Under the pieces are notes generated by a model. That model had not been told where the DNA came from and did not search any database. It saw only the letters and a program-made list of their open reading frames with translations. The position numbers and the translations under genes were made by a program. A stretch of 64,000 nt of DNA, from assembly GCF_000211835.1 (NCBI RefSeq), contig NZ_AEGR01000052.1:62001-126000 (forward strand), in the 5' to 3' direction. The DNA is from Hylemonella gracilis ATCC 19624 (GTDB taxonomy: Bacteria; Pseudomonadota; Gammaproteobacteria; Burkholderiales; Burkholderiaceae_C). This document shows positions 34,325 through 43,600 of this stretch, one piece after another (positions within the stretch are counted from its first letter, which is position 1; the number at the start of each line of letters is the position of its first letter).

Positions 34325-35080
34325 TCAAGCGGTGCTGGCCGCTCTCATGGCGGGGGACGTCGTGGCCGTGGGCGCGCACAGCCCGTGCAGCAGGATGCGC
34401 GCCTGTTGTTCCAAGTAGCGCACGGGGTCGATGGCTTCGGTGGGTGCGGCGCAGGCGCCAAAGGAGTGCTTCCAAGACATCAGGAACAGCATGGGCGCCA
34501 GCACCGCGTAGACCGCATGCCGCATGTCAGCCGGGGCGATGAGCCGGAATTCCCCCCGGTCCACGCCGCGTTGCAAAATGCGTTGCACCAGCGAGCGGCC
34601 AGGCGCCATGACCTCGCTCTCATAGAAGGACGCGAGCTCGGGGAAGTTGGCGGCTTCGCTCATCATGAGTTTGGTGATGCCCGCCACGGGTGTGCTGCCG
34701 ACCCGCTCCCACCATTCCCGCAAAGCATATTGAAGCAGCTCCGAGGTGTTGCCGGACCAGACATCGAACTCGGCATTCCATTCGGGAAAATGGCCGGCCA
34801 AGTTCTCGCGCACCACGGCCTTGAAGAGTTCTTCCTTGTTGGCGAAGTACAGGAACAGCGTGCCCTTGGACACGCCAGCGAGTTGGGCCACCTCTTCGAC
34901 ACGGGTCGCGGCATAGCCTTTTTCGACGAACAGCGTCAGCGCCGCGGCCAGCAACTCGCCGGGCCGGGCTTCCTTGCGCCGCGCGCGCTTGGCCGGTGTG
35001 CTCGTGTCCTCGCCGCCCTTGCGCCGTGAACTCAGCGCCGAGACAAGGGTGGCCGCCACAGGGCATGCTTTTCTGATCAT
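34325..35080 (-). CDS. TetR-family repressor of the adjacent RND operon
   Basis: A 251-residue regulator with a ~35-residue basic N-terminal extension and then the TetR HTH: LLAAALTLFVEKGYAATRVEEVAQLAGVSKGTLFLYFANKEELFKAV. The C-terminal ligand domain resembles AcrR/TetR_C proteins (GITKLMMSEAANFPELASFYESEVM). It is the first gene of the efflux operon and begins 10 bases from a near-perfect 20-base palindrome, which points to autoregulation of the whole operon. Binding of a pump substrate would relieve repression (family knowledge). Confidence 0.93.
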   Translation of the reverse strand: MIRKACPVAATLVSALSSRRKGGEDTSTPAKRARRKEARPGELLAAALTLFVEKGYAATRVEEVAQLAGVSKGTLFLYFANKEELFKAVVRENLAGHFPEWNAEFDVWSGNTSELLQYALREWWERVGSTPVAGITKLMMSEAANFPELASFYESEVMAPGRSLVQRILQRGVDRGEFRLIAPADMRHAVYAVLAPMLFLMSWKHSFGACAAPTEAIDPVRYLEQQARILLHGLCAPTATTSPAMRAASTA

Positions 35081-35090
35081 CTTTTGATTT

Positions 35091-35110
35091 TAATGACTGG
35101 CCGGTCATTA
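35091..35110. promoter_or_regulatory. TetR operator candidate before the efflux operon
   Basis: TAATGACTGG (35091-35100) and CCGGTCATTA (35101-35110) form a 20-base palindrome with nine of ten pairs matched (mismatch 35098/35103). The half-site TGAC...GTCA is typical of TetR-family operators. It starts 11 bases upstream of the tetR ATG, where it would block the operon promoter. The rest of the 250-base gap to msrA (35111-35330) shows no gene. Confidence 0.75.
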
Positions 35111-35330
35111 GGCAAGTTCAAGGGCTGTTTCCACCCCCTCGACGGCGTGTGCGATTCGCCCCATCGGACAATGGCGCATTCGCTGGTGGATTCGCTGGCG
35201 CAAGCCAAGGCGCGAGTCAGGTTCATCGATAAGCCTTTTGGCGATTGGGCGAGCGTCCAGACTTCCATCATGGCAGACTCGCCCCGAACTGCCTTGCGGG
35301 CCCCCAGTCCCTCAAGTGCGTGCGCAAACC

Positions 35331-35933
35331 ATGAAACCCTTGGCGGACCCTATACAGATGCAAGACACCCAGACTTCGGACACTCCGGTAACCGCGACCG
35401 AGACCCTGGTGCTCGGCGGTGGCTGCTTCTGGTGCACCGAGGCCATCTTCACCCGCGTGCGCGGCGTGATCGATGTCGAGAACGGCTACAGCAATGGCCA
35501 TGTGAAGCAACCCAGTTACGAGGATGTGTGCACCGGCGATACCGGCCATGCCGAAGTGGTGCGCGTTGTCTACGACCCGGCCGAGATCAGCCTGCAGCAG
35601 TTGCTTGGGATTTTCTTTTCCATCCACGACCCAACCACGCTCAATCGGCAGGGCAATGACGTGGGGCCTCAATACCGCAGTGGCATCTACACGAGATCGG
35701 CCGAGCAGGCGCGCGTGGCTCGGGAAATGATCGCCGACCTCGAGCAGGGCCGCATCTTCAGCTCGCCCATCGTGACCGAGGTGCAGCCGCTGAGCAATTA
35801 CTGGCCCGCCGAGGACTACCACCAGGATTACTTCGAGCACCACCCCGAACAAAGCTACTGCGCCTTTGTCGTCGGTCCCAAGGTGGAAAAGTTTCGCAAG
35901 CATTTCGTCGAATTGCTCAAGCCCGGGGCTTGA
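35331..35933 (+). CDS. msrA: peptide-methionine (S)-S-oxide reductase
   Basis: A 200-residue enzyme that reduces methionine-S-sulfoxide in proteins. The catalytic motif is GGGCFWCTEAIF, followed by GYSNGHVKQPSYEDVCTGDTGHAEVVRV and QYRSGIY, all characteristic of MsrA. The last segment EQSYCAFVVGPKVEKFRKHF is also typical. The start is uncertain: ATG 35331 is used, but ATG 35358 gives an N-terminus closer to the family. It is divergent from the tetR operon. It belongs with AhpCF as oxidative damage defence. Confidence 0.95.
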   Translation: MKPLADPIQMQDTQTSDTPVTATETLVLGGGCFWCTEAIFTRVRGVIDVENGYSNGHVKQPSYEDVCTGDTGHAEVVRVVYDPAEISLQQLLGIFFSIHDPTTLNRQGNDVGPQYRSGIYTRSAEQARVAREMIADLEQGRIFSSPIVTEVQPLSNYWPAEDYHQDYFEHHPEQSYCAFVVGPKVEKFRKHFVELLKPGA

Positions 35934-35954
35934 CGCGCCGCCTAAAATGGCGGG

Positions 35955-36359
35955 GTGACGCTTGACCTTGCCGTGAACCCGCTCCAACGTCTGGGCCCTG
36001 CCTGGCGCAGGGTCTTGCTCGGGCTGGTCCTGCTGCTGCCGCTGGCGCAATGGGGCGCCGTGCTGCACGGGCTGGAACACGACGTCCAAGCGTCGGCGCA
36101 TCTGACCGATTCAGCGGACCCGTTTGACCCGGCCAACCCGGCCAATGGTGCGGACTCCCATGGGCCGGACTCCTCCGCAGCGCATGCCTGCGGGACCTGC
36201 CTGGCCTATGCCTCCCTCGGCGTGTTGGGCTTGCATGGCCTGCTGGCCGCGCCCTTGATCAGCGGCCTCGCCTTTGGGCTCGCCGTGCTGGTTCCGTGCC
36301 TGATCCCACGTCTGGCCGTGGTTCGAGCACGCAACCGGGGCCCGCCCGCGTTGGGCTGA
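35955..36359 (+). CDS. small membrane protein with His/Cys motif (DUF2946-like)
   Basis: A 134-residue protein starting at a GTG (MTLDLAVNPLQRLG). It has a hydrophobic N-terminal segment (VLLGLVLLLPLAQWGAVLHG), then HGLEHD, a polar stretch with several His and Asp residues, and ACGTCLAYASL, and a second hydrophobic segment near the C-terminus. The hydrophobic-HxxxH...CxxC layout resembles DUF2946 proteins found beside copper or zinc TonB receptors. Metal binding by the His and Cys residues is inferred. It is the first gene of a plus-strand cassette with two DUF3299 genes and a ZnuD-like receptor. A short stem (35938-35953) lies right before the start codon. Confidence 0.65.
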   Translation: MTLDLAVNPLQRLGPAWRRVLLGLVLLLPLAQWGAVLHGLEHDVQASAHLTDSADPFDPANPANGADSHGPDSSAAHACGTCLAYASLGVLGLHGLLAAPLISGLAFGLAVLVPCLIPRLAVVRARNRGPPALG

Positions 36360-36504
36360 GTGCCGTTGCTCTGGGGCGAGCGAGTCCGTCTTGGCGGACG
36401 CAGTCCCCCATTCAGCCGATTCCTGCGACTCCGCCCCGCGCTGGGGGCCCGTCTCGCGCCGTGGGCTCACCGTGGCCACGCACCTTCCTCTTCAGGGCAT
36501 GCTC

Positions 36505-37110
36505 ATGAAATCCGGTGGTTTCAAATTTCTTCCCGCCTTCCTGGCGCTGGCCGTGTTGGTGCTGCTGCCCATCGCGACGCGCAAGCTGATGGGCGGGCGT
36601 GATTTCAGCGAAGACCGCCCGGCGGCCACCGCAGGACCTGCTGCAGACCCCGTGTTCCGCGAGCTTGCTTGGCGCGAGCTCGAGCCTGAGAACTGGAATC
36701 CTGAGTCGGTCCTCAAGCAGGTGCGGCAAGGCGCGCCCTCCTTGGACGACAACGATCCCCGCATGCGCGAGCGCATGCAGCTGATGACCATGCTCTGGGC
36801 CAACGCACCCACGAACGCGCGCATGGACGAGTCTTCGGTGCGGCTGTCGGGCTATGTCGTTCCCCTGGAAAAAAACGAGGAGGGCATCACGGAATTCCTG
36901 CTGGTGCCGTATTACGGCGCCTGCATCCACGTGCCGCCGCCGCCCGCCAACCAGATCGTCCGCGTCGTTGCCCGTCCCGCCGTGCGCGACCTGCGCACCA
37001 TGGACCCCGTGCGGGTCAGCGGGGTGCTGCGCATCGAGCGCAACAACTCCGAGCTCGGTCACAGCGGCTATGCGATGGTGGCCGCACGCGTCGAGCCCTA
37101 CACCCCCTGA
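36505..37110 (+). CDS. DUF3299 protein, first of a tandem pair
   Basis: A 201-residue protein with an N-terminal membrane anchor or uncleaved signal (FLPAFLALAVLVLLPIATRKLMG) and a periplasmic DUF3299 domain: LSGYVVPLEKNEEGITEFLLVPYYGACIHVPPPPANQIV. The GACIH-x-PPPPANQ block is the family hallmark and holds a conserved Cys and His. DUF3299 genes are linked to zinc-responsive loci in other proteobacteria, including an operon of Pseudomonas aeruginosa under Zur control (established, from memory). AGGG seven bases before ATG 36505 supports this start; ATG 36499 is also possible. A paralogue follows 44 bases downstream. Confidence 0.8.
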   Translation: MKSGGFKFLPAFLALAVLVLLPIATRKLMGGRDFSEDRPAATAGPAADPVFRELAWRELEPENWNPESVLKQVRQGAPSLDDNDPRMRERMQLMTMLWANAPTNARMDESSVRLSGYVVPLEKNEEGITEFLLVPYYGACIHVPPPPANQIVRVVARPAVRDLRTMDPVRVSGVLRIERNNSELGHSGYAMVAARVEPYTP

Positions 37111-37124
37111 GCGCCCGCTTGCGC

Positions 37125-37154
37125 AAGGACAAGGACAAGGACAAGGACAAGGAC
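37125..37154 (+). repeat. five tandem AAGGAC hexamers abutting a start codon
   Basis: AAGGAC is repeated exactly five times (37125-37154) and runs straight into the ATG of the second DUF3299 gene. Each unit contains AAGGA, a Shine-Dalgarno-like sequence, so the array supplies several overlapping ribosome binding sites at different spacings. Changes in copy number would alter the leader by six bases without changing frame. Confidence 0.9.
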
Positions 37155-37793
37155 ATGACCATGCCATTCCTTCTTGATGCCGTGCCACGGGGCTCCCTCG
37201 TGCGGTGCCTGCTGCGTCGTGCCAGGACGGCCCTGGTGCTGATGCCCTTCGTCCTTCCCTTGGTGTTGCCGGTCGTGCACGCTTACCAGGGCAATCCTCC
37301 GCCGGTCGTGCCGCCATTCCAGGGCGACTACAAGGTGACCCGCTGGGGCGAACTGGTGCCCAAGGATTGGGACCCTTACGCCTCCCTGGGCGCCTTGAAT
37401 CCGCAAGGTTCAGCGGCCCTGCCGTTCAACGACGCCTCGCCCGAGGCCATGGAGTTGAATGCCAAGTTGCGCGAAGTCTGGGACCACGCCCCGACCAACC
37501 GAGCCCTCGATGGCGCGCTCACGCGTCTGCCCGGTTACGTCGTTCCCCTGGAGGAAAGCCGGCAGGGCTTGAAGGAGTTCCTGCTCGTGCCTTACTTCGG
37601 CGCCTGCATCCACACCCCGCCACCGCCCGCCAACCAAATCGTCCACGTGGTGCTGGACAAGCCCATGCAAGGCGTGCGTTCCATGGACGCGGTCTGGGTC
37701 GTGGGCACGCTCAAGACCGTGCGCCGCGGCAGTGACATGGGCGTGAGCGGCTACCAGCTGCGCGCCACGGCGCTCGCGCCCTACCAGCGCTGA
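37155..37793 (+). CDS. DUF3299 protein, second of a tandem pair
   Basis: A 212-residue exported protein. The signal-like N-terminus (TALVLMPFVLPLVLPVVHA) is followed by a DUF3299 domain: LPGYVVPLEESRQGLKEFLLVPYFGACIHTPPPPANQIVHVV, closely matching the paralogue's core but with little similarity elsewhere. The ATG at 37155 is taken because the frame upstream (from a TTG at 37119) would translate the AAGGAC array into Lys-Asp repeats before the signal sequence. An ATG two codons further in is possible. It probably works with the upstream paralogue and the TonB receptor in metal handling. Confidence 0.8.
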   Translation: MTMPFLLDAVPRGSLVRCLLRRARTALVLMPFVLPLVLPVVHAYQGNPPPVVPPFQGDYKVTRWGELVPKDWDPYASLGALNPQGSAALPFNDASPEAMELNAKLREVWDHAPTNRALDGALTRLPGYVVPLEESRQGLKEFLLVPYFGACIHTPPPPANQIVHVVLDKPMQGVRSMDAVWVVGTLKTVRRGSDMGVSGYQLRATALAPYQR

Positions 37794-37800
37794 ACGCGGC

Positions 37801-38259
37801 ATGCCCATGCGCCCCAGACTCCAGCACGACCTTGGCGTCACAGCGCGTGCGCGGCGCTGTGCGCGTCAATGTGCACGTGCGCGGGCGATGCCCGCCTGGG
37901 TTGCGATGCTGCTGGTACTGGCCCTGCTCTGGGCGCAGGTGCTGGGGCTGGCGCACGGGGTGCGCCATGTCCACGCGCCGCAGGCCCACGTGCAGCACAG
38001 CCCGAAGGCTGGCGACGCGCACATGGACCCTGCCCATGTCGAACCACAAAGTCTCTTGGAGCACTTGGCCGCGCCCGATGGCGAGGTCCAGGACTGCCGT
38101 CTGTATGACCAACTCGGTCATGGCGGCCCGGTCGCGGTGCCGCTCATCGCCGCGCTGACGCATGCCTCACCGCTGACACCCGCCTGGGTCGTGCTGCAGG
38201 CCTTGCAGCCCCGACCCTGCGTCGCTTTCGCGGCGCGCGCCCCGCCCACGTCTCGCTGA
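37801..38259 (+). CDS. small His-rich exported protein
   Basis: A 152-residue protein seven bases after the second DUF3299 gene. It has a basic N-terminus, one hydrophobic segment (AWVAMLLVLALLWAQVLGLAHG), and then a strikingly His-rich periplasmic stretch: HGVRHVHAPQAHVQHSP, HMDPAHVEP and later CRLYDQLGHG. Nine or more histidines within about 60 residues suggest reversible metal binding. It resembles small DUF2946-type proteins beside metal receptors, but I cannot assign a named family with confidence. Immediately downstream is the ZnuD-like receptor, a plausible partner. Confidence 0.62.
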   Translation: MPMRPRLQHDLGVTARARRCARQCARARAMPAWVAMLLVLALLWAQVLGLAHGVRHVHAPQAHVQHSPKAGDAHMDPAHVEPQSLLEHLAAPDGEVQDCRLYDQLGHGGPVAVPLIAALTHASPLTPAWVVLQALQPRPCVAFAARAPPTSR

Positions 38260-38346
38260 TTCCCTCTTCTTCTTGGCCAGGCCATGCAGTCCCCGTCGGA
38301 CCGCGTGGTGGCCTGTTTTTGACTTGAAAATGATCGAGACGCTTTC

Positions 38347-40386
38347 ATGAACCGAATGTCATCTTCCCGGCCCGTGCGGCACGGGGTTTTCGCGCTGGCG
38401 CCCGTCGCCGCGCTGGTCCTGATCAGCTGCCAGGCTTGGGCGCAGGACGCCGCCACCTTGCCCTCCGTCGTGGTGACGGGCAACCCGCTGGGCACGGCCG
38501 AGCAAATCGCTCCTGCTGAACAGCTGTCGGGCACCGCATTGCTGGAGCGCGGGCAGTCCACCCTGGGCGAAACGCTCAAGGGCTTGCCCGGCGTCAGCAG
38601 CACCTGGTTCGGCCCCAATGCCAGCCGCCCGGTGATCCGCGGGCAAGACGGCGACCGCATCGCCATCCTCAACAACGGCGGCGCCAGCCTCGACCTCTCC
38701 GCGCTGAGTTATGACCATGCCGTCACCTTGGATCCGCTGTTGACCGAACGCGTCGAGGTCCTGCGCGGTCCGGGCGTGCTGCAGTACGGCGGCAGCGCCG
38801 TGGGGGGGGTGGTCAACGTGATCGACAACCGCATTCCCCGCACGGCCGAATTTGGCGAGGAGGGCGGCGTCGCGGGCCGACTCGGCGCCTACTACGCCAC
38901 GGGCGGCGACGAACGCGGCGGGGTCCTCTCCTTGGACGGGGGCAACAACCGCTATGCCTTGCATGTGGACGCGATGGCGCGCAAGTCCGACGACGTGGAC
39001 ATTCCGGTGTCGCGTGAGTGCACGCCCGACGGCGTGACACGCAGCGCCAAGCGCATCTGCAACTCGGCCAGCGAGTCCAGCGGCGGCGCCGTGGGCGGCA
39101 CCCTGTTCTTCGACCGCGGTTACCTCGGGGCCTCGGTCTCCACCTACGACAAGGACTATGGCGCCGTGGCCGAGGACGAGGTCACGATCCAGATGCGCTC
39201 CAACCGCGTGGCGCTCGAAGGTGAACTGCGCGACCTGGGGCCCGTGCTGCGCAGCGTGAAGGCCCAGTTCAGCCAGACCGATTACCAGCACACCGAGTAC
39301 GAGGGCGATGAAGTCGGCACACGCTTCAAGACCGATGGCCAGGACCTGCGCCTGGAGGCGCGCCATGTGCCCGTCGATGCCTTCGGCGGCGCGCTGGACG
39401 GCGTCGTGGGCTTGCAGTTCGACCGCACCGACTTCTCGGCCGATGGGGATGAGGCCTATGCCCCCAGCAGCCGCACGCGCCAGAGCGCCATCTTTGCCTA
39501 CGAGGAACTTGGCCTGGGCTGGGGCAAGCTCAGCGCGGGCGCGCGGGTGGAGTCGGTCAAGGTCGAGTCCCTCGGCGCGGACGGCAATCCGGCCTTCACC
39601 ACGGGCTCGCGCAGCTTCACGCCCACCAGCTACGCCCTGGGCGCCTTGTGGAACGTGGCGACGGAGTGGAAGCTGACTTCCAACCTCTCGCTCAACGAGC
39701 GCGCGCCGCGGCACTACGAGCTGTACGCCAACGGCGAGCATGTTGCAACGAACGCGGAAGAAATTGGCGACCCGGACCTGGACCTGGAGCGTTCCGTCAA
39801 CGTGGACGTGGGCACGCAATGGCAACGTGGCGCGCACAAGGCGCAGTTGCAGTTGTTCCAGCACCGCTTCAGCAACTACATCTCGCTGGAAAGCACCGAT
39901 CCGGCCAGCGATCCGCCGCAGTACACCTACACCGGGCTGCGCGCGCGCTTCACCGGCCTGGAAGCGAGCGGCAATGTGCGCTTGCTGGATGAACGCAATA
40001 AGCTGGACCTGGGCCTGAGCGCCGACCGCGTGAAAGCCGAGAACACCAGCACGGGGGAACCCCTGCCGCGCATCGCGCCGATGCGCGTCGGCGCCACGCT
40101 GCGCTGGAGCCGTGCCGCCTGGAAAGCGGGCGTGGGCGTGGACCGTTACGCCGAGCAGGACCGCGTGCCCGACGGCCAGGAAACCACCGACGGCTACATG
40201 CTGTGGAACGCCTCGCTCAACTACAGCGACAAGCTCGGTGGCCTGCCCGCGCTGTGGTACGCGCGCGTGGACAACATCGGTGACGTGGAGGCGTACTCGG
40301 CCTCGTCCATCCTGACGCAGACCGCGCCGGGCAAGTCACCGTTGCCGGGACGCAGCCTCAAGGTGGGCATGCAGCTGAGCTTCTGA
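38347..40386 (+). CDS. znuD: TonB-dependent outer membrane receptor, ZnuD-like
   Basis: A 679-residue receptor with a signal peptide ending in CQAWAQ, a plug domain and a barrel. The plug has VVVTGNPLG, PVIRGQDGDRIAILNNGGASLDLSALSYDHAVTLDPLLTERVEVLRGPGVLQYGGSAVGGVVNVID, which closely follows ZnuD-type zinc receptors, as does the barrel segment APRHYELYANGEHVATNAEEIGDPDL. It ends in the barrel signature VGMQLSF. It would import zinc (or a zinc-bound ligand) using TonB energy. No clear Zur box was seen upstream. It ends the cassette with DUF3299 and His-rich proteins; copper cannot be excluded. Confidence 0.85.
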   Translation: MNRMSSSRPVRHGVFALAPVAALVLISCQAWAQDAATLPSVVVTGNPLGTAEQIAPAEQLSGTALLERGQSTLGETLKGLPGVSSTWFGPNASRPVIRGQDGDRIAILNNGGASLDLSALSYDHAVTLDPLLTERVEVLRGPGVLQYGGSAVGGVVNVIDNRIPRTAEFGEEGGVAGRLGAYYATGGDERGGVLSLDGGNNRYALHVDAMARKSDDVDIPVSRECTPDGVTRSAKRICNSASESSGGAVGGTLFFDRGYLGASVSTYDKDYGAVAEDEVTIQMRSNRVALEGELRDLGPVLRSVKAQFSQTDYQHTEYEGDEVGTRFKTDGQDLRLEARHVPVDAFGGALDGVVGLQFDRTDFSADGDEAYAPSSRTRQSAIFAYEELGLGWGKLSAGARVESVKVESLGADGNPAFTTGSRSFTPTSYALGALWNVATEWKLTSNLSLNERAPRHYELYANGEHVATNAEEIGDPDLDLERSVNVDVGTQWQRGAHKAQLQLFQHRFSNYISLESTDPASDPPQYTYTGLRARFTGLEASGNVRLLDERNKLDLGLSADRVKAENTSTGEPLPRIAPMRVGATLRWSRAAWKAGVGVDRYAEQDRVPDGQETTDGYMLWNASLNYSDKLGGLPALWYARVDNIGDVEAYSASSILTQTAPGKSPLPGRSLKVGMQLSF

Positions 40387-40404
40387 GCTGCGTTTCACTG
40401 CGCA

Positions 40405-40466
40405 GGGCAGGCCGCCGCCGTGACCGTGATGCCCACCCGGGGCGGCGGCGGCGGTCGGCCCTGCCC
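40405..40466. terminator. long GC hairpin downstream of znuD-like gene
   Basis: GGGCAG plus GCCGCCGCCG (40405-40420) can pair with GGCGGCGGCGGCGG...CCCTGCCC (about 40441-40466) to give a very stable GC stem with a small internal mismatch. It begins 18 bases after the znuD-like stop and separates it from the AsmA-like gene. No T-tract follows. The rest of the gap to 40650 shows no gene and presumably holds the promoter of the next operon. Confidence 0.5.
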
Positions 40467-40650
40467 ATGGCGTGGCCAGACCTGCGCCGCCGTCCCGCGG
40501 TCCGTTCTGCCCGCAGGGGCCTCGGGTACGATCACCGTCGTGAATCAACTGGCTCTGACTCCGCTCCCTGGGCAAGGCGGGTATCGCGCTTGCGTGCCAC
40601 CCGCCACGGCGGCACTTCCCCTACGCATGCAGAGGCAAACGGAGGCTTGA

Positions 40651-43600
40651 ATGTCCATGCCCCGATGGACCCGGGTCGTCGCTGGCGTGCTGCTGGCCTT
40701 GGTGGTGGCGGCGGTCGCGGTGTTGGCCATGGCGGCGCTGCTGTTGCGGCAGCTGGACCATCCCTGGATCAAGCCGCGCATCGTCGCGGCGGTCGAAGCG
40801 GCCTCGGGCCTGCGCGTCGACTACCAGCGGGCCAGCGCATCACTCACCTCCGGCCTGCGGCTCGAACAACTGGTCGTGTACACGCCCGCGCCCTTCAATG
40901 GCGTCGCGCCCGAACTGCTGCGCGTGGGCCGCTTGGAAGCGGATTGGTCGCTGCGTTCGCTCGCGCTCGGCCCTGCACGGGTGGCGCGCGTGGCCGTGCA
41001 CGATCTGTCCCTGACCTGGGTCGCCGATGAGGCGGGTGCCAACTCGCTGTCGGCGCTCACTTCCGAGCCGTCCGAGCCGCATGCGAATAACGACGACGCC
41101 TCGAGTGGGGCGTCGCGGCAACTCGCCAACATCTTCTCCGCGCTGGCGCCAGTCGCCCAGCTGGAGGTGACCGGGGTGGTGCTCGAGCACGTGCGCGTGC
41201 GCGGTGGCGCTGTCGTGGATCGCTGGTCTTTGCGTGGACTGGCCCTGGTGGCAAGGGCCCTGCAACAGAAGAACCCGGAAGGAGCGGCAGAAGTACCGGC
41301 GAGCGGCTGGGCGCTGCAGGCGGAGATGGGGCGGCCCGATGCGCCGCTGGCCCTGACCCTGTCGCGCACCGTGCCCTCGCAGGGCGCGAGCCCCAAGCAT
41401 GAGAACACCGCCCTTGCAGGGCAGGGGCCAGCGGTGGCCGAGTTGATGCTGTCGTGGGGCATCCAAGCCGATGCCGCGGGGGCCCAAACGCAGATCGGTG
41501 TGGCGGTGACACGCCAGAACTTCGATGCGCGCATCCCCGCCGCCGTGCCCTTGCTAAGCGGCGCGGCGTCTGCGAAGGTCGATGCAAGTCGGCGCGGACT
41601 GGACATCGAGCTGCACCCCACCCGATTGGCCGACAGCGCCGAGGCGCAAGCCCAGCTGTTCCTGCCCGACGATGCCCAGGCCTCGCTGGTCCTGTCGCAG
41701 GCCCGGGTCGATGCCGATTTGGCCCGGCTGCTGCGGCTCATTCCCGCCGATCTGCGCCCCCTCACACTGGAGCGCGGCATGCTGCACCTGGAGTTGGCGG
41801 GACTGACGCTGGAGCCGGGCAACCCGCAGCCTTCGGTGCTGCGCTCTCCCGCGCGTTTGCGCTTGAACGTGCAAGCCGACGCCGCCCAGGCCCAGCTGGA
41901 GGCGGACAAGGCCGGCGACACGGTGAGTTGGAAGGCTGCTATTCATGCGCCCGATCTGGCCCTGGTCCGCCCCTTCGTGTCCCCAGCCGTCCTGGCCCGT
42001 CTGCCTTGGCAGCGCATGGGCGTGGACTTGTCCTCCCAAGGCCGGGCGGAGGCGCTCTTGTCATCCGCGCCGCGCATCACCCAGCGCACCGAGCTGCGCG
42101 TGCGTCAACCGGCGTGGGACCCCGTCGTGTCGGCCCGCGAGGTGGTCGCCGTGCTGGACTCGCGAGGCGACGCCTGGCGGCATCAGGGCGAATTGCACCT
42201 CGAGGCCGAGGGCTTGCGTGTCCATGAGCAAGACGCGGGCGCGCAGCGCTACACGCTGGCGTTCGACGTGAATCGCCCCTCGTCCGCGCCCAAGGACCAG
42301 ACATTCGAAGCGCGGGTGCGGCTGTCCAGCCAGGCCGGGGTGAGGCTCGCGCTCGAGGCCGCGCTGGCCTTCGATCCGCGGGCCCGTGCCCTGCGCGGCA
42401 GCGTGAAAGCGAATCTGCCCGCCCAGCCTGTGCCTGCGGCCTTGCAGGCCTGGCTGCCCGCGCAACTCGATGCCGAGCGCTTGGCGCTGGACGTGGACGC
42501 GCAGGGGGTGCTGACGGGCGTGATCACCGGCGTCGGGGACGACGGCCTGCCCCAGTTCGCCCCCGACCCCCTGGCCAGCGCGGCACTGAACGGACAGGCC
42601 ATGATCGAGGCGCGCGGCATCGACTGGCAGCAAGACGGTCTGATGGTGCAGGTGCCTGCGCTGCGCTGGCACCTGGTGTCGCATGCCGCCCCCGCGGCCC
42701 TGGCGCCAGCCCAGGCGCGTCGCACGCTGACCGGGACCTTGACCATGGAACGTGCGCGCGTCACCTTGGCCGAGCGCGGCCTGATCTTGACTGGTCTCTC
42801 GGCCAGCACGGGGGCCAGCTTTGGCGCGCAGCTGGGCGATGAACCCGAGTTCTCGCTGCAGCTCAAGATCGACGCCCTGGAGCAGCAACCCGCCTTGCCT
42901 TATGCCGTGCGCGGCCTGGTCTGGCAGCTGCGCGCCCGTCGCGACGCCGAGGGCGCATTCCTCCTGCCCGAGTTCAAGCTCACGCATGCGGCCACCCGCA
43001 CCAGCCTCGCGGCCCAAGGGCGGCTCGACCTCGCGCCCGGGCGGCGGCGCTTCGCGCTGCAGGGCGCCGTGTCGCAAGACGTGGCGGGCTTGAACCTGCC
43101 CGGCGTGATGGAGGGGCGTGGACGCGCCAGCGTGGATTTCGAACTGGCCTCACCCGACCTCGCCACCTTCCGCACCCAAGCCAGCTTGCGGCTGGACGGC
43201 GTGAACCTGAGCCTGCCCGCGCAGGGCATCGTGGTCGAGGGGCTCGACGGCGACATCCCCGTGTACGAAGACCTCCACGTGGCGCAAGGCCGCGTGCGGC
43301 TGCTGGACACGCTCGCGTTCAACCCCTACGCCATGCTGCGCTTCACCGACCAATCACCGCTGCTGTCGCGCGGTGGCTATGTGTCGGCCGTGAGCATCAC
43401 GACGCCATTAGTCCGCATCGCGCCGCTCGCGGGCAACTTGACGGTGCGGCAGAACGTGTTCGCCATGTCCCAGCTCGAAATGGGGGTGCGCGGAGGCCGC
43501 GTCACTGGCCAGAGCCGCTTGGACTGGCGCGGGCGGGATTCCTTGCTCGAGCTGCGCGTGCGCGCCACTGGGCTGCGCTCGTCGCGTGGTGAACCGTTCG

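Follow-up and report, generated by a model that had tools for sequence, protein, structure and literature searches.

A putative zinc acquisition operon of Hylemonella gracilis with two candidate regulatory leader ORFs

What do two small His/Cys proteins do in a metal locus that encodes two DUF3299 proteins and a TonB-dependent receptor, without a local ABC transporter? This question is raised by a locus in a 64,000-nt stretch of DNA from Hylemonella gracilis ATCC 19624, which we call the window. The first-pass annotation described a metal cassette, a description that our analysis bears out, and proposed a periplasmic relay from the receptor via the His-rich protein to the DUF3299 proteins. We favor another reading, with a probability of roughly 0.62: the operon probably serves to acquire zinc, or possibly both zinc and copper, and its two small His/Cys proteins are regulatory leader ORFs and not carriers.

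Gene content, conservation and the receptor

The five ORFs described before are all present on the + strand, in the order given. The unit was incomplete, however, as the upstream msrA gene also belongs to it. The features are as follows.

35238-35933, + strand: msrA, peptide methionine sulfoxide reductase A (Pfam PMSR, 222 bits)
35955-36359, + strand: leader ORF 1 (GTG start), DUF2946-like, candidate CruR-type arrest peptide by motif spacing
36336-36347, + strand: RGPP, putative arrest motif of leader ORF 1 (from sequence; RAPP/RGPP arrest in accessible parts of PMC12992588)
36360-36498, no strand: 139-nt gap that separates leader ORF 1 from the DUF3299 pair; no unusual fold (z +1.18)
36499-37110, + strand: DUF3299 protein 1, N-terminal hydrophobic anchor, GACIH block at 36916-36954 (Pfam, 141.7 bits)
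37155-37793, + strand: DUF3299 protein 2, signal-peptide-like N-terminus (by eye, from hydropathy), GACIH block at 37599-37637 (Pfam, 145.9 bits)
37801-38259, + strand: leader ORF 2 (the "His-rich protein"), a possible arrest peptide linked to zinc (CRLY and RAPP motifs, relatives)
38275-38320, + strand: attenuator-like hairpin (38275-38313) and TTTTT (38316-38320) in the gap after leader ORF 2, ahead of the receptor gene, from folding
38347-40386, + strand: ZnuD-like TonB-dependent receptor (4rdr match, ligand alignment, Pfam plug and barrel)

The true start of msrA is probably 35331 or 35358. In relatives msrA heads the operon, and it overlaps an ABC ATPase gene by 4 nt in six loci (L153, L154, L156, L157, L159 and L164). 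In the window, msrA ends 21 nt before leader ORF 1, the second DUF3299 gene ends 7 nt before leader ORF 2, and leader ORF 2 directly precedes the receptor gene across an 87-nt gap. Gene order is identical in the sister genome G151, with DNA identities of 68-90% in the six coding parts and of 61%, 53% and 78% in the three gaps compared. Moreover, dN/dS is below 1 in each of the six genes (for DUF3299 protein 1, dN 0.157 and dS 0.686). Because G151 keeps the order, the coding parts and a dN/dS below 1, the locus is not a chance arrangement.

The ZnuD-like character assigned to the receptor was confirmed: it matches the ZnuD structure 4rdr (E 9.1e-59), its only solved match at E 1e-10, and the NCBIfam ZnuD profile is its best model. 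Residues D123, H124, E317 and H465 align with the identical zinc ligands D99, H100, E340 and H499 of ZnuD, the four high-affinity positions given in PMC4557270, and all four are kept in 44/44 aligned receptors. A regular-expression version of the ligand test was discarded, as flanking letters left the three motifs together in only 22/44 receptors. We use the term "ZnuD-like" because the score against NCBIfam ZnuD (NF038289), 328 bits, misses the cut-off of 950. With the copper-receptor model TIGR01778 it scores 78.7, where 472 is the cut-off.

The two small ORFs and their downstream stretches

RAPP and RGPP motifs arrest ribosomes (accessible text of PMC12992588), and the leader peptide CruR has a spacing of 45 residues (PMC9426467, in its accessible part). 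In leader ORF 1, which has two hydrophobic segments, CGTC at residues 79-82 is followed by 45 residues, RGPP, ALG and the stop. This is the CruR-type arrangement, a CXXC 45 residues, give or take one or two, before a C-terminal RAPP-like motif. The G151 counterpart reads CAGC-45-RGPP, with equal spacing though the two proteins are 48.8% identical and unequal in length. The earlier label "DUF2946-like" holds as a likeness, which is all we claim: the ORF scores 20.6 bits (E 8e-4) against Pfam DUF2946, below the cut-off of 23.7.

The fourth ORF encodes a small His-rich protein, as annotated, and is itself DUF2946-like, a label missed at first pass, with a Pfam score of 11.8 bits, below the cut-off; only 2/16 aligned relatives match Pfam DUF2946 even at E<1. 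In this protein, CRLY at residues 99-102 (38095-38106) precedes 43 residues, RAPP (38236-38247), TSR and the stop, so that both small proteins have R[A/G]PP three residues ahead of the stop. Leader ORF 2 shares with CruR this C-terminal motif, an N-terminal hydrophobic segment and a long gap before the receptor gene. The CXXC metal motif is missing, with CRLY instead, and for this reason we file leader ORF 2 as a possible CruR-like variant and not as CruR. An H-x3-H motif is invariant across the 16 aligned relatives, and dN/dS is about 0.25. By gene order both leaders lie inside the operon and not at its head, where CruR genes are reported to stand. That leader ORF 2 might sense metal without the copper-sensing CXXC of CruR is a guess.

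A profile-free scan for ORFs that end in R[AG]PP, no more than 8 residues from the stop, and have a Cys 41-47 residues before this motif found such leaders upstream of 40/44 ZnuD-like receptors versus 1/361 control genes (SFC-type 0/48, msrA 0/46, msrA-locus permease 0/45, msrA-locus ATPase 0/44, Zrg permease 0/91, Zrg ATPase 1/87). They also precede 5/66 zrgA genes and 2/122 GACIH-type DUF3299 genes. The second Cys is missing in 38 of the 40 receptor leaders; the two with CXXC (L104 and L107) count against a clean split.

Searches with a leader-2 profile gave matches in 102/299 family genomes. Among the 71 members read from 104 listed places (30 loci plus 40, with 8 repeats of first-set places), the Cys lies at 42-44 in every case (at 43 in 60), none has CXXC, exactly three residues follow RxPP in 54, and 69 stand directly before a ZnuD-like receptor (62 by the stricter first rule). 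Canonical DUF2946 leaders, with the arrest motif in 28 of 30 loci returned, have CXXC in 28/28 and a ZnuD-like receptor of at least 60 bits downstream in 0/28, but the contrast between classes is partly circular because each profile was seeded with one motif, and only the profile-free scan avoids a leader profile. A GACIH-type DUF3299 gene is the upstream neighbor of 1/71 leaders, namely that of the window. A lack of conserved co-occurrence, named at first pass as a refutation, applies in part: the small protein and the receptor pair widely, but of all loci read, this one and that of G151 alone have a GACIH-type DUF3299 pair beside them.

RNA folding was examined downstream of the leaders. Positions 38257-38330 fold at -24.8 kcal/mol (z -2.29), and the whole gap, 38257-38349, reaches only z -1.36. 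The stretch after the leader in relatives has a mean z of -1.49 versus -0.13 for receptor coding sequence and is lower in 33/39. A terminator-like rule is passed after the leader by 14/39 relatives (3.8 expected; 25/39 fail) and by 2/156 coding stretches. A terminator scan of 34900-40700 returned two sites, one being the hairpin after leader ORF 2, where shuffles give 4.2. RNAalifold on 17 intergenic RNAs detected weak covariation (7 pairs, 5 changed on both sides, term -0.83); the relatives in this set have hairpins too, but column-by-column alignment fails. The excess of C over G is greater across the final 300 nt of leaders than it is in receptors at 37/37 loci tested (of 39); this C-over-G bubble is small and equally high in DUF3299 genes, and was thus dropped as not leader-specific.

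DUF3299 genes, ABC partners and promoter elements

Both DUF3299 proteins exceed the Pfam cut-off (PF11736, 22 bits) and carry the FLLVPYxGACIHxPPPPANQ block. The common blocks reported for the pair, GACIHVPPPPANQ and GACIHTPPPPANQ, are present, and the two proteins are 38% identical. DUF3299 protein 2 matches the PA4066 structure 4hsp (E 7.9e-30), and by sequence homology both genes are PA4066/ZrgE homologues. The statement that DUF3299 is known from zinc-responsive loci agrees with the literature on Vibrio and Pseudomonas, where zinc regulates the DUF3299/Zrg loci (accessible parts of PMC9817125 and PMC11481552).

The annotation had found no ABC transporter gene and concluded that delivery must use other parts. 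The former is true of the locus alone, as contig C25 of this genome carries a ZrgA-ATPase-permease-DUF3299-Fur-family operon; the latter needs revision, given this operon and one ZIP match in the same genome. The C25 operon has the full Zrg composition (ZrgA, ATPase and MacB-like permease with DUF3299), which the window locus lacks. No match to the ZnuA family was found in this genome.

In relatives, the operon reads msrA-ABC-DUF3299-like-leader-receptor. The window locus has lost the ABC genes, and two Zrg-type DUF3299 genes fill the slot. DUF3299-like genes of the SFC type lie beside ABC genes in 15/16 genus loci (permease scored), 31/32 family loci and 7/7 other-family loci read. The ABC-SFC unit also occurs without an adjacent receptor, which is found in 14/32 family loci and 0/7 other-family loci. 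Of 26 genus genomes, 3 have the Zrg permease, 15 the msrA-locus permease, none both and 8 neither. This exclusion may reflect one event, as the 3 genomes seem to form a single clade. Of the 26 genomes, 10 are less than 90% complete. Both DUF3299 types occur in 3 of 150 family genomes (one-sided p 0.019, uncorrected for kinship). Variovorax also has DUF3299 genes away from ABC genes alongside a Zrg operon (J22R193: L045, L052; NBRC 15149: L055, L060). In the tree, DUF3299_2 is placed beside the third DUF3299 of L011 (97/92) and DUF3299_1 with L099 (87/85); many deep forks are open, and we claim no donor for the pair.

Single deletions of zrgD or zrgE (DUF3299) leave growth of Vibrio cholerae unaffected (PMC9820375, accessible part), and PA4063-PA4066 has been argued to export pyochelin-cobalt and not to import zinc (accessible part of PMC11481552). 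Two distinct operon types link DUF3299 proteins with split MacB-like transporters, which provides a lead for this family of unknown function.

A Zur box had been suggested as a check on the cassette. Scans of 22 loci with the canonical consensus gave no site near the window locus, where other box types are possible, and whole-genome scans gave 47 sites versus 62 for the reversed control. The one notable hit, a 12/14 match to the consensus, stands some 50 nt ahead of zrgA at L030, in another genome. For the regions upstream of 66 zrgA genes, a de novo motif search gave coding-like motifs only. Three species share an identical 22-bp element ahead of the Zrg operon; it was rejected as a link to the window operon, since 21 bp of it occur once in the genome (at most 3 mismatches). 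The palindrome TAATGACTggccGGTCATTA upstream of msrA is conserved in three species and adjoins a divergent TetR gene, and was thus taken as a TetR operator.

Proposed mechanism, rival explanations and known systems

These sequence features are best read as a zinc branch of leaders of the CruR type. Under metal scarcity, the ribosome would stall at R[A/G]PP in the C-terminus of the nascent chain and keep the downstream hairpin and T-run, or Rho, from ending expression, so that the next gene is made. Once the conserved Cys, some 43-45 residues before this motif, has bound metal on the nascent chain, whose His-rich part would lie outside the ribosome, the stall would be relieved and expression would stop. 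Leader 1 (CXXC-45-RGPP) may control the DUF3299 pair, and leader 2 (CRLY-43-RAPP) the ZnuD-like receptor, presumably a zinc importer across the outer membrane. The DUF3299 proteins would act in the periplasm as accessories to a split ABC transporter of the MacB/FtsX type; with the local ABC genes lost, the partner in trans is most likely the Zrg-type ABC of contig C25, in whichever direction it transports. A bolder version, to which we would give somewhat less than even odds, is that metal-sensing arrest peptides include a large zinc branch. Its members would be DUF2946-like leaders in which a degenerate C-x-x-hydrophobic motif stands 42-44 residues ahead of R[A/G]PP, and they would switch ZnuD-type zinc receptors, and sometimes zrgA, on and off via the nascent chain. 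The window would then hold a copper-type and a zinc-type leader in series, one transcript gated by two metals.

The metal could instead be copper, sensed by both leaders as by CruR and taken up by the receptor, alone or as a complex. CXXC-45-RGPP in leader 1 matches CruR, CruR and CutF respond to copper (accessible parts of PMC9426467 and PMC9973294), and two leaders before ZnuD-like receptors carry CXXC. We consider this unlikely, as the receptor has retained all four ZnuD zinc-ligand positions, has ZnuD as its only solved match at E 1e-10 and falls well below the copper-receptor cut-off, CXXC occurs in 0/71 members of the leader-2 class, and the zinc regulation of DUF3299/Zrg loci in Vibrio and Pseudomonas points away from copper. 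The relay, with the His-rich protein as a stable periplasmic or membrane zinc carrier, would explain the invariant H-x3-H, the close linkage of leader and receptor and the low dN/dS of this protein. It is less probable still: the protein has an arrest motif and a CruR-type upstream position, a Cys at a fixed distance from a C-terminal R[AG]PP is needed by an arrest peptide and not by a carrier, most leader-2 members place that motif exactly three residues before the stop, and of the 71 leaders only the window's own has a GACIH-type DUF3299 gene as its upstream neighbor. Least plausible to us is a decaying or transitional locus whose DUF3299 copies lost their function with the local ABC genes. 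Those genes are indeed absent, and the DUF3299 proteins are each 75.1% identical in G151 versus 93.1% for the receptor, but both genes are intact in two species, with dN/dS of about 0.23 and 0.28, and Variovorax likewise has ABC-distant DUF3299 genes in genomes with a Zrg operon.

If the zinc-receptor leader is real family-wide, zinc gains a post-transcriptional switch, which would fit the missing canonical Zur box at this locus. Furthermore, His/Cys "metal-binding membrane proteins" annotated beside receptors may be leader peptides, a likely misreading that would be corrected. The leader pieces are short and defined, and thus testable in cell-free systems.

CruR was reported as the first leader ORF answering to a transition metal, and as most likely exported and then degraded, in the accessible part of PMC9426467, which also remarks that neither copper nor zinc had a described riboswitch. 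That RAPP/RGPP leaders precede TonB-related genes in general is already known (accessible part of PMC12992588). The word zinc is absent from PMC9426467 and PMC12992588, and the symbol Zn occurs in the former. We found no report of a zinc-linked leader in the open-access literature searched, outside which most subscription papers fall (accessible parts of PMC9426467, PMC9973294, PMC12992588 and PMC12914433).

Among known systems, ZrgABCDE of Vibrio and PA4063-PA4066 of Pseudomonas aeruginosa combine DUF3299 with a split MacB-like ABC transporter and respond to zinc, their transport being disputed between zinc import and metallophore export in the accessible literature. The C25 operon has the same make-up, whereas the window locus has DUF3299 without ZrgA or ABC genes, beside a receptor and leaders. 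The receptor shares its four high-affinity zinc-ligand positions, plug and barrel with ZnuD of Neisseria meningitidis (4RDR, 4RDT, 4RVW) and differs in reaching 328 of 950 bits against NCBIfam ZnuD. CutF of Rhodobacter capsulatus, also of the DUF2946 family, is a nascent exported protein whose C-terminus is rich in proline and whose gene is separated from the next one by a stem-loop, but it activates a copper oxidase gene, has a CxxxC motif and lacks a receptor. The closest parallel in layout is CruR-bfrG-bp2921 of Bordetella pertussis, with a DUF2946 leader and a TonB receptor: CruR and leader 2 are small exported-type ORFs in which a conserved Cys motif lies about 45 residues ahead of a C-terminal RAPP, three residues before the stop, and which are followed by a long gap and a TonB-dependent receptor gene. 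CruR has CXXC, responds to copper, acts Rho-dependently and is reported first in its operon, whereas leader 2 has C-R-L-Y and a downstream hairpin, is operon-internal, and lies before a ZnuD-like receptor.

The operon and its immediate relatives

Our data favor reading this locus as an operon for a zinc-type receptor in which the small proteins are most plausibly arrest-peptide leaders, a reading with a probability of about 0.62. The five genes that the first-pass annotation had placed in a single direction are present at the positions it gave.

35238-35933, +, msrA (methionine sulfoxide reductase)
35955-36359, +, leader 1 (candidate), DUF2946-like ORF
36499-37110, +, DUF3299_1
37155-37793, +, DUF3299_2
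37801-38259, +, leader 2 (candidate), small His-rich ORF
38275-38313, hairpin followed by TTTTT, between leader 2 and the receptor gene
38347-40386, +, ZnuD-like TonB-dependent receptor

The DUF3299 profile scores 141.7 bits at 36499-37110 and 145.9 bits at 37155-37793 against a cut-off of 22. The two proteins are 38% identical over the aligned length and both carry FLLVPYxGACIHxPPPPANQ (GACIH-type hereafter); moreover, a search against solved structures pairs DUF3299_2 with PA4066 (4hsp, E 7.9e-30). ZnuD (4rdr, E 9.1e-59) is the only solved match of the receptor at E 1e-10. Four zinc-ligand residues of ZnuD, mapped on the basis that chain and paper numbering differ by 14 residues (counted on the printed alignment), are conserved in 44/44 aligned receptors, namely all those available that score at least 300 bits. 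An earlier test of these residues by regular expression had detected its full set of three motifs in 22/44.

Gene order is identical in the sister species G151. DNA identity between the two is 68-90% across the six coding parts and 61%, 53% and 78% in gaps 1, 2 and 3; dN/dS is below 1 in all six genes. Under the start codons adopted here, on which these lengths depend, the gaps after the leaders are long (139 nt after leader 1, 87 nt after leader 2), and the remaining junctions measure 21, 44 and 7 nt. Five tandem copies of AAGGAC, absent from G151, lie at 37125-37154 immediately 5' of the DUF3299_2 start; they resemble repeated ribosome-binding sites, and their number could vary. Further upstream, a palindrome adjoining the divergent TetR gene (TAATGACTggccGGTCATTA, 35091-35110), kept in three species with a variable centre, is probably a TetR operator for the upstream RND efflux genes.

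Locus arrangements and the Zrg operon

The receptor is present in 25 of 26 genus genomes, the sole exception being 72% complete. Fifteen genus loci share the order MacB/FtsX-type permease, divergent DUF3299-like protein, small His-rich protein, receptor. msrA stands at the front in 13 of them (L152-L157, L159-L164, L173); in L151 the contig ends first, and L158 has none within the stretch examined. An ABC ATPase gene lies between msrA and permease in all nine loci checked for it, and the msrA and ATPase genes overlap in six. The divergent protein carries TCSFCxPGGPES in place of the GACIHxPPPPANQ of DUF3299, and we label it SFC-type; its profile aligns with that of DUF3299 at 96.6% probability. 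The SFC-type gene adjoins ABC genes in 15/16 genus loci (permease scored), in 31/32 family loci (the 32 examined come from 38 loci that matched DUF3299 weakly and lie outside the genus) and in 7/7 loci from other families. Of the 32 family loci, 14 include a receptor and 23 include msrA; none of the seven other-family loci has a receptor next to the ABC/SFC-type unit. GACIH-type genes were found with another transporter: among the 80 best loci retrieved with DUF3299_2, 69 have a Zrg-type permease (ZrgA-ATPase-permease-DUF3299 system) within the stretch, and at least one of the remaining 11 is at a contig end.

Neither ABC genes nor an SFC-type gene is present at the window locus, where their slot is occupied by the DUF2946-like ORF and the two GACIH-type genes. 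The genus genome G150, with msrA, SFC-type gene, small protein and receptor and no ABC genes, looks like an intermediate arrangement. The window's genome, G150 and G151 each carry zrgA, ATPase, permease (863-912 bits) and DUF3299 at another place, and a Zrg-type permease was found in 0/15 genus genomes having the msrA-locus permease; eight genus genomes, several of them incomplete, have neither. Across 150 family genomes, GACIH-type proteins occur in 29, SFC-type in 40 and both in three, as counted by hand from the search table (one-sided p 0.019, which ignores kinship). The Zrg operon of the window's genome and an element upstream of such operons are as follows.

Contig C25, window's genome: zrgA (Pfam ZrgA 163 bits), ATPase, permease, DUF3299, Fur-family gene
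L004 205-226, AATGATAATGAATAATTGATAA element
L046 5236-5257, AATGATAATGAATAATTGATAA element
L198 3409-3430, AATGATAATGAATAATTGATAA element

We infer that the window DUF3299 proteins serve the C25 transporter. The genome has one ZIP match and none to PF01297 (ZnuA), a profile that matched 11/14 control genomes. The C25 Fur-family protein finds its best solved match in 3mwm, annotated as a putative metal uptake regulation protein, which we take to be a Streptomyces Zur; iron Furs and a FurB that bears the label zinc uptake regulator score within about 3 bits of it, and therefore the metal of this protein is not settled. The 22-bp AT-rich element has the same sequence in three species, and the window's genome contains 21 bp of it at a single site when up to 3 mismatches are allowed. 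Three 7-bp TGATAAT-type repeats seem to compose it, in the manner of a Fur box. In a Burkholderiaceae MAG (L030, ~5275), a 12/14 match to the canonical Zur-type consensus lies about 50 nt before zrgA, the only one of its kind among 22 loci scanned.

The function of Zrg/PA4063-PA4066-type transporters is disputed between zinc uptake and export. The Vibrio reports describe Zrg as a zinc uptake system and note that a single zrgE deletion has no growth effect (PMC9817125, PMC9820375); another report argues that PA4063-PA4066 exports pyochelin and cobalt as a MacB-type system (PMC11481552).

Candidate leaders upstream of ZnuD-like receptors

CruR of Bordetella pertussis is described as a DUF2946 leader ORF that governs a receptor gene by arresting translation at its C-terminal RAPP; it perceives copper via a CXXC 45 residues before RAPP, and this spacing matters (PMC9426467). 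A further study reports ribosome arrest by RAPP and RGPP both in vitro and in living cells, demonstrates CruR arrest in vitro, and finds both motifs avoided in proteomes, tending to occur near the ends of small proteins, including some upstream of TonB-related, copper and other genes (PMC12992588). Leader 1 ends in CGTC, 45 residues, RGPP, ALG and stop. In G151 the counterpart is nine residues shorter and 48.8% identical, with the ending CAGC, 45 residues, RGPP, ALR and stop. Leader 2 ends in CRLY, 43 residues, RAPP, TSR and stop.

The independent test of the leader/receptor link was a scan that used no small-protein model and sought ORFs of at least 80 residues with R[AG]PP at most 8 residues from the stop and a Cys 41-47 residues back. 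A leader was found upstream of 40/44 ZnuD-like receptors and of 1/361 control genes from the same loci, in a set not thinned for loci duplicated between collections (SFC-type 0/48, msrA 0/46, msrA-locus permease 0/45 and ATPase 0/44, Zrg permease 0/91, Zrg ATPase 1/87). Leaders also precede 5/66 zrgA genes and 2/122 GACIH-type genes, the latter in the window and G151. The four misses comprise L207, which has a leader and a receptor ORF called too long (same place as L245), second receptors within their genomes (L171, L174), and L067. In the 40 leaders the fourth motif position holds Y in 26, L in 7, F in 4, C in 2 and H in 1.

The small-protein profile A3 matches in 102/299 family genomes and 59/126 genera. 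We examined 71 of 104 listed places, from 30 loci returned and 40 chosen; the 33 left out include most of the weakest, and eight of the 70 loci duplicate places already in the first set. In all 71 leaders a Cys lies 42-44 residues ahead of R[AG]PP (60 at 43), with a hydrophobic fourth residue (Y 37, F 17, L 12, I 4, M 1; Cys 0). A ZnuD-like receptor comes next after 62/71 by the first rule and after 69/71 when over-long receptor ORFs are allowed. One exception, in L272, has no receptor found after it; the other, in L268, precedes what by eye looks like another TonB receptor, the second R[AG]PP leader of that locus standing before a ZnuD-like one. In the contrast set, made up of the 30 loci listed by a Pfam DUF2946 search of 120 family genomes, the arrest motif is present in 28/30, with CXXC at 43-47 in 28/28 (CPCC in L312) and a ZnuD-like receptor of at least 60 bits downstream in 0/28. 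This contrast is partly built in, because each profile started from seeds carrying one of the two motifs. L011 (978-8477) contains zrgA, ATPase and permease genes, with DUF3299 copies flanking what by eye looks like a different TonB receptor, and a CXXC-45-RGPP leader precedes zrgA.

The RNA after leader 2 gives a fold z of -2.29 for the 74-nt stretch with the hairpin and -1.36 for the whole gap. The terminator scan lists this hairpin, among 2 sites in the region vs 4.2 in shuffles. Across 39 loci, the window included, the post-leader stretch folds more stably than shuffles, with a mean z of -1.49 vs -0.13 for receptor coding sequence, and is lower in 33, and the hairpin sequences differ. A stem followed by TTTT occurs in 14/39 post-leader stretches (3.8 expected from shuffles) and 2/156 coding stretches. 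Some relatives could pair TGAATC, at the stop, with a GATTCA just 5' of the receptor start, and L158 could pair TGAACC with GGTTCA; this is at most suggestive, since RNAalifold found little covariation. A ribosome stalled on the leader might act on a terminator, the ribosome-binding site or Rho.

Metal specificity and known systems

The first-pass annotation had suggested that metal passes from the receptor to the His-rich protein and then to the DUF3299 proteins. We consider such a relay improbable and prefer to read the His-rich protein as an arrest-peptide leader. That these leaders form a zinc-sensing branch is a tentative proposal, to which we give somewhat less than even odds.

Our literature search did not find the ZnuD-like-receptor variant of the leader, its motif or its breadth. 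ZrgD (DUF2607) of the Vibrio zrg operon, described as about 101 residues long, with one membrane helix and missing in some species (PMC9817125, PMC9820375), may also be a leader ORF. One report places CutF-like proteins with His motifs only near nickel- and cobalt-linked genes, and leaders for non-copper metals have therefore already been suggested (PMC9973294); the text consulted makes no mention of zinc receptors. The CruR-type system is itself of a known kind.
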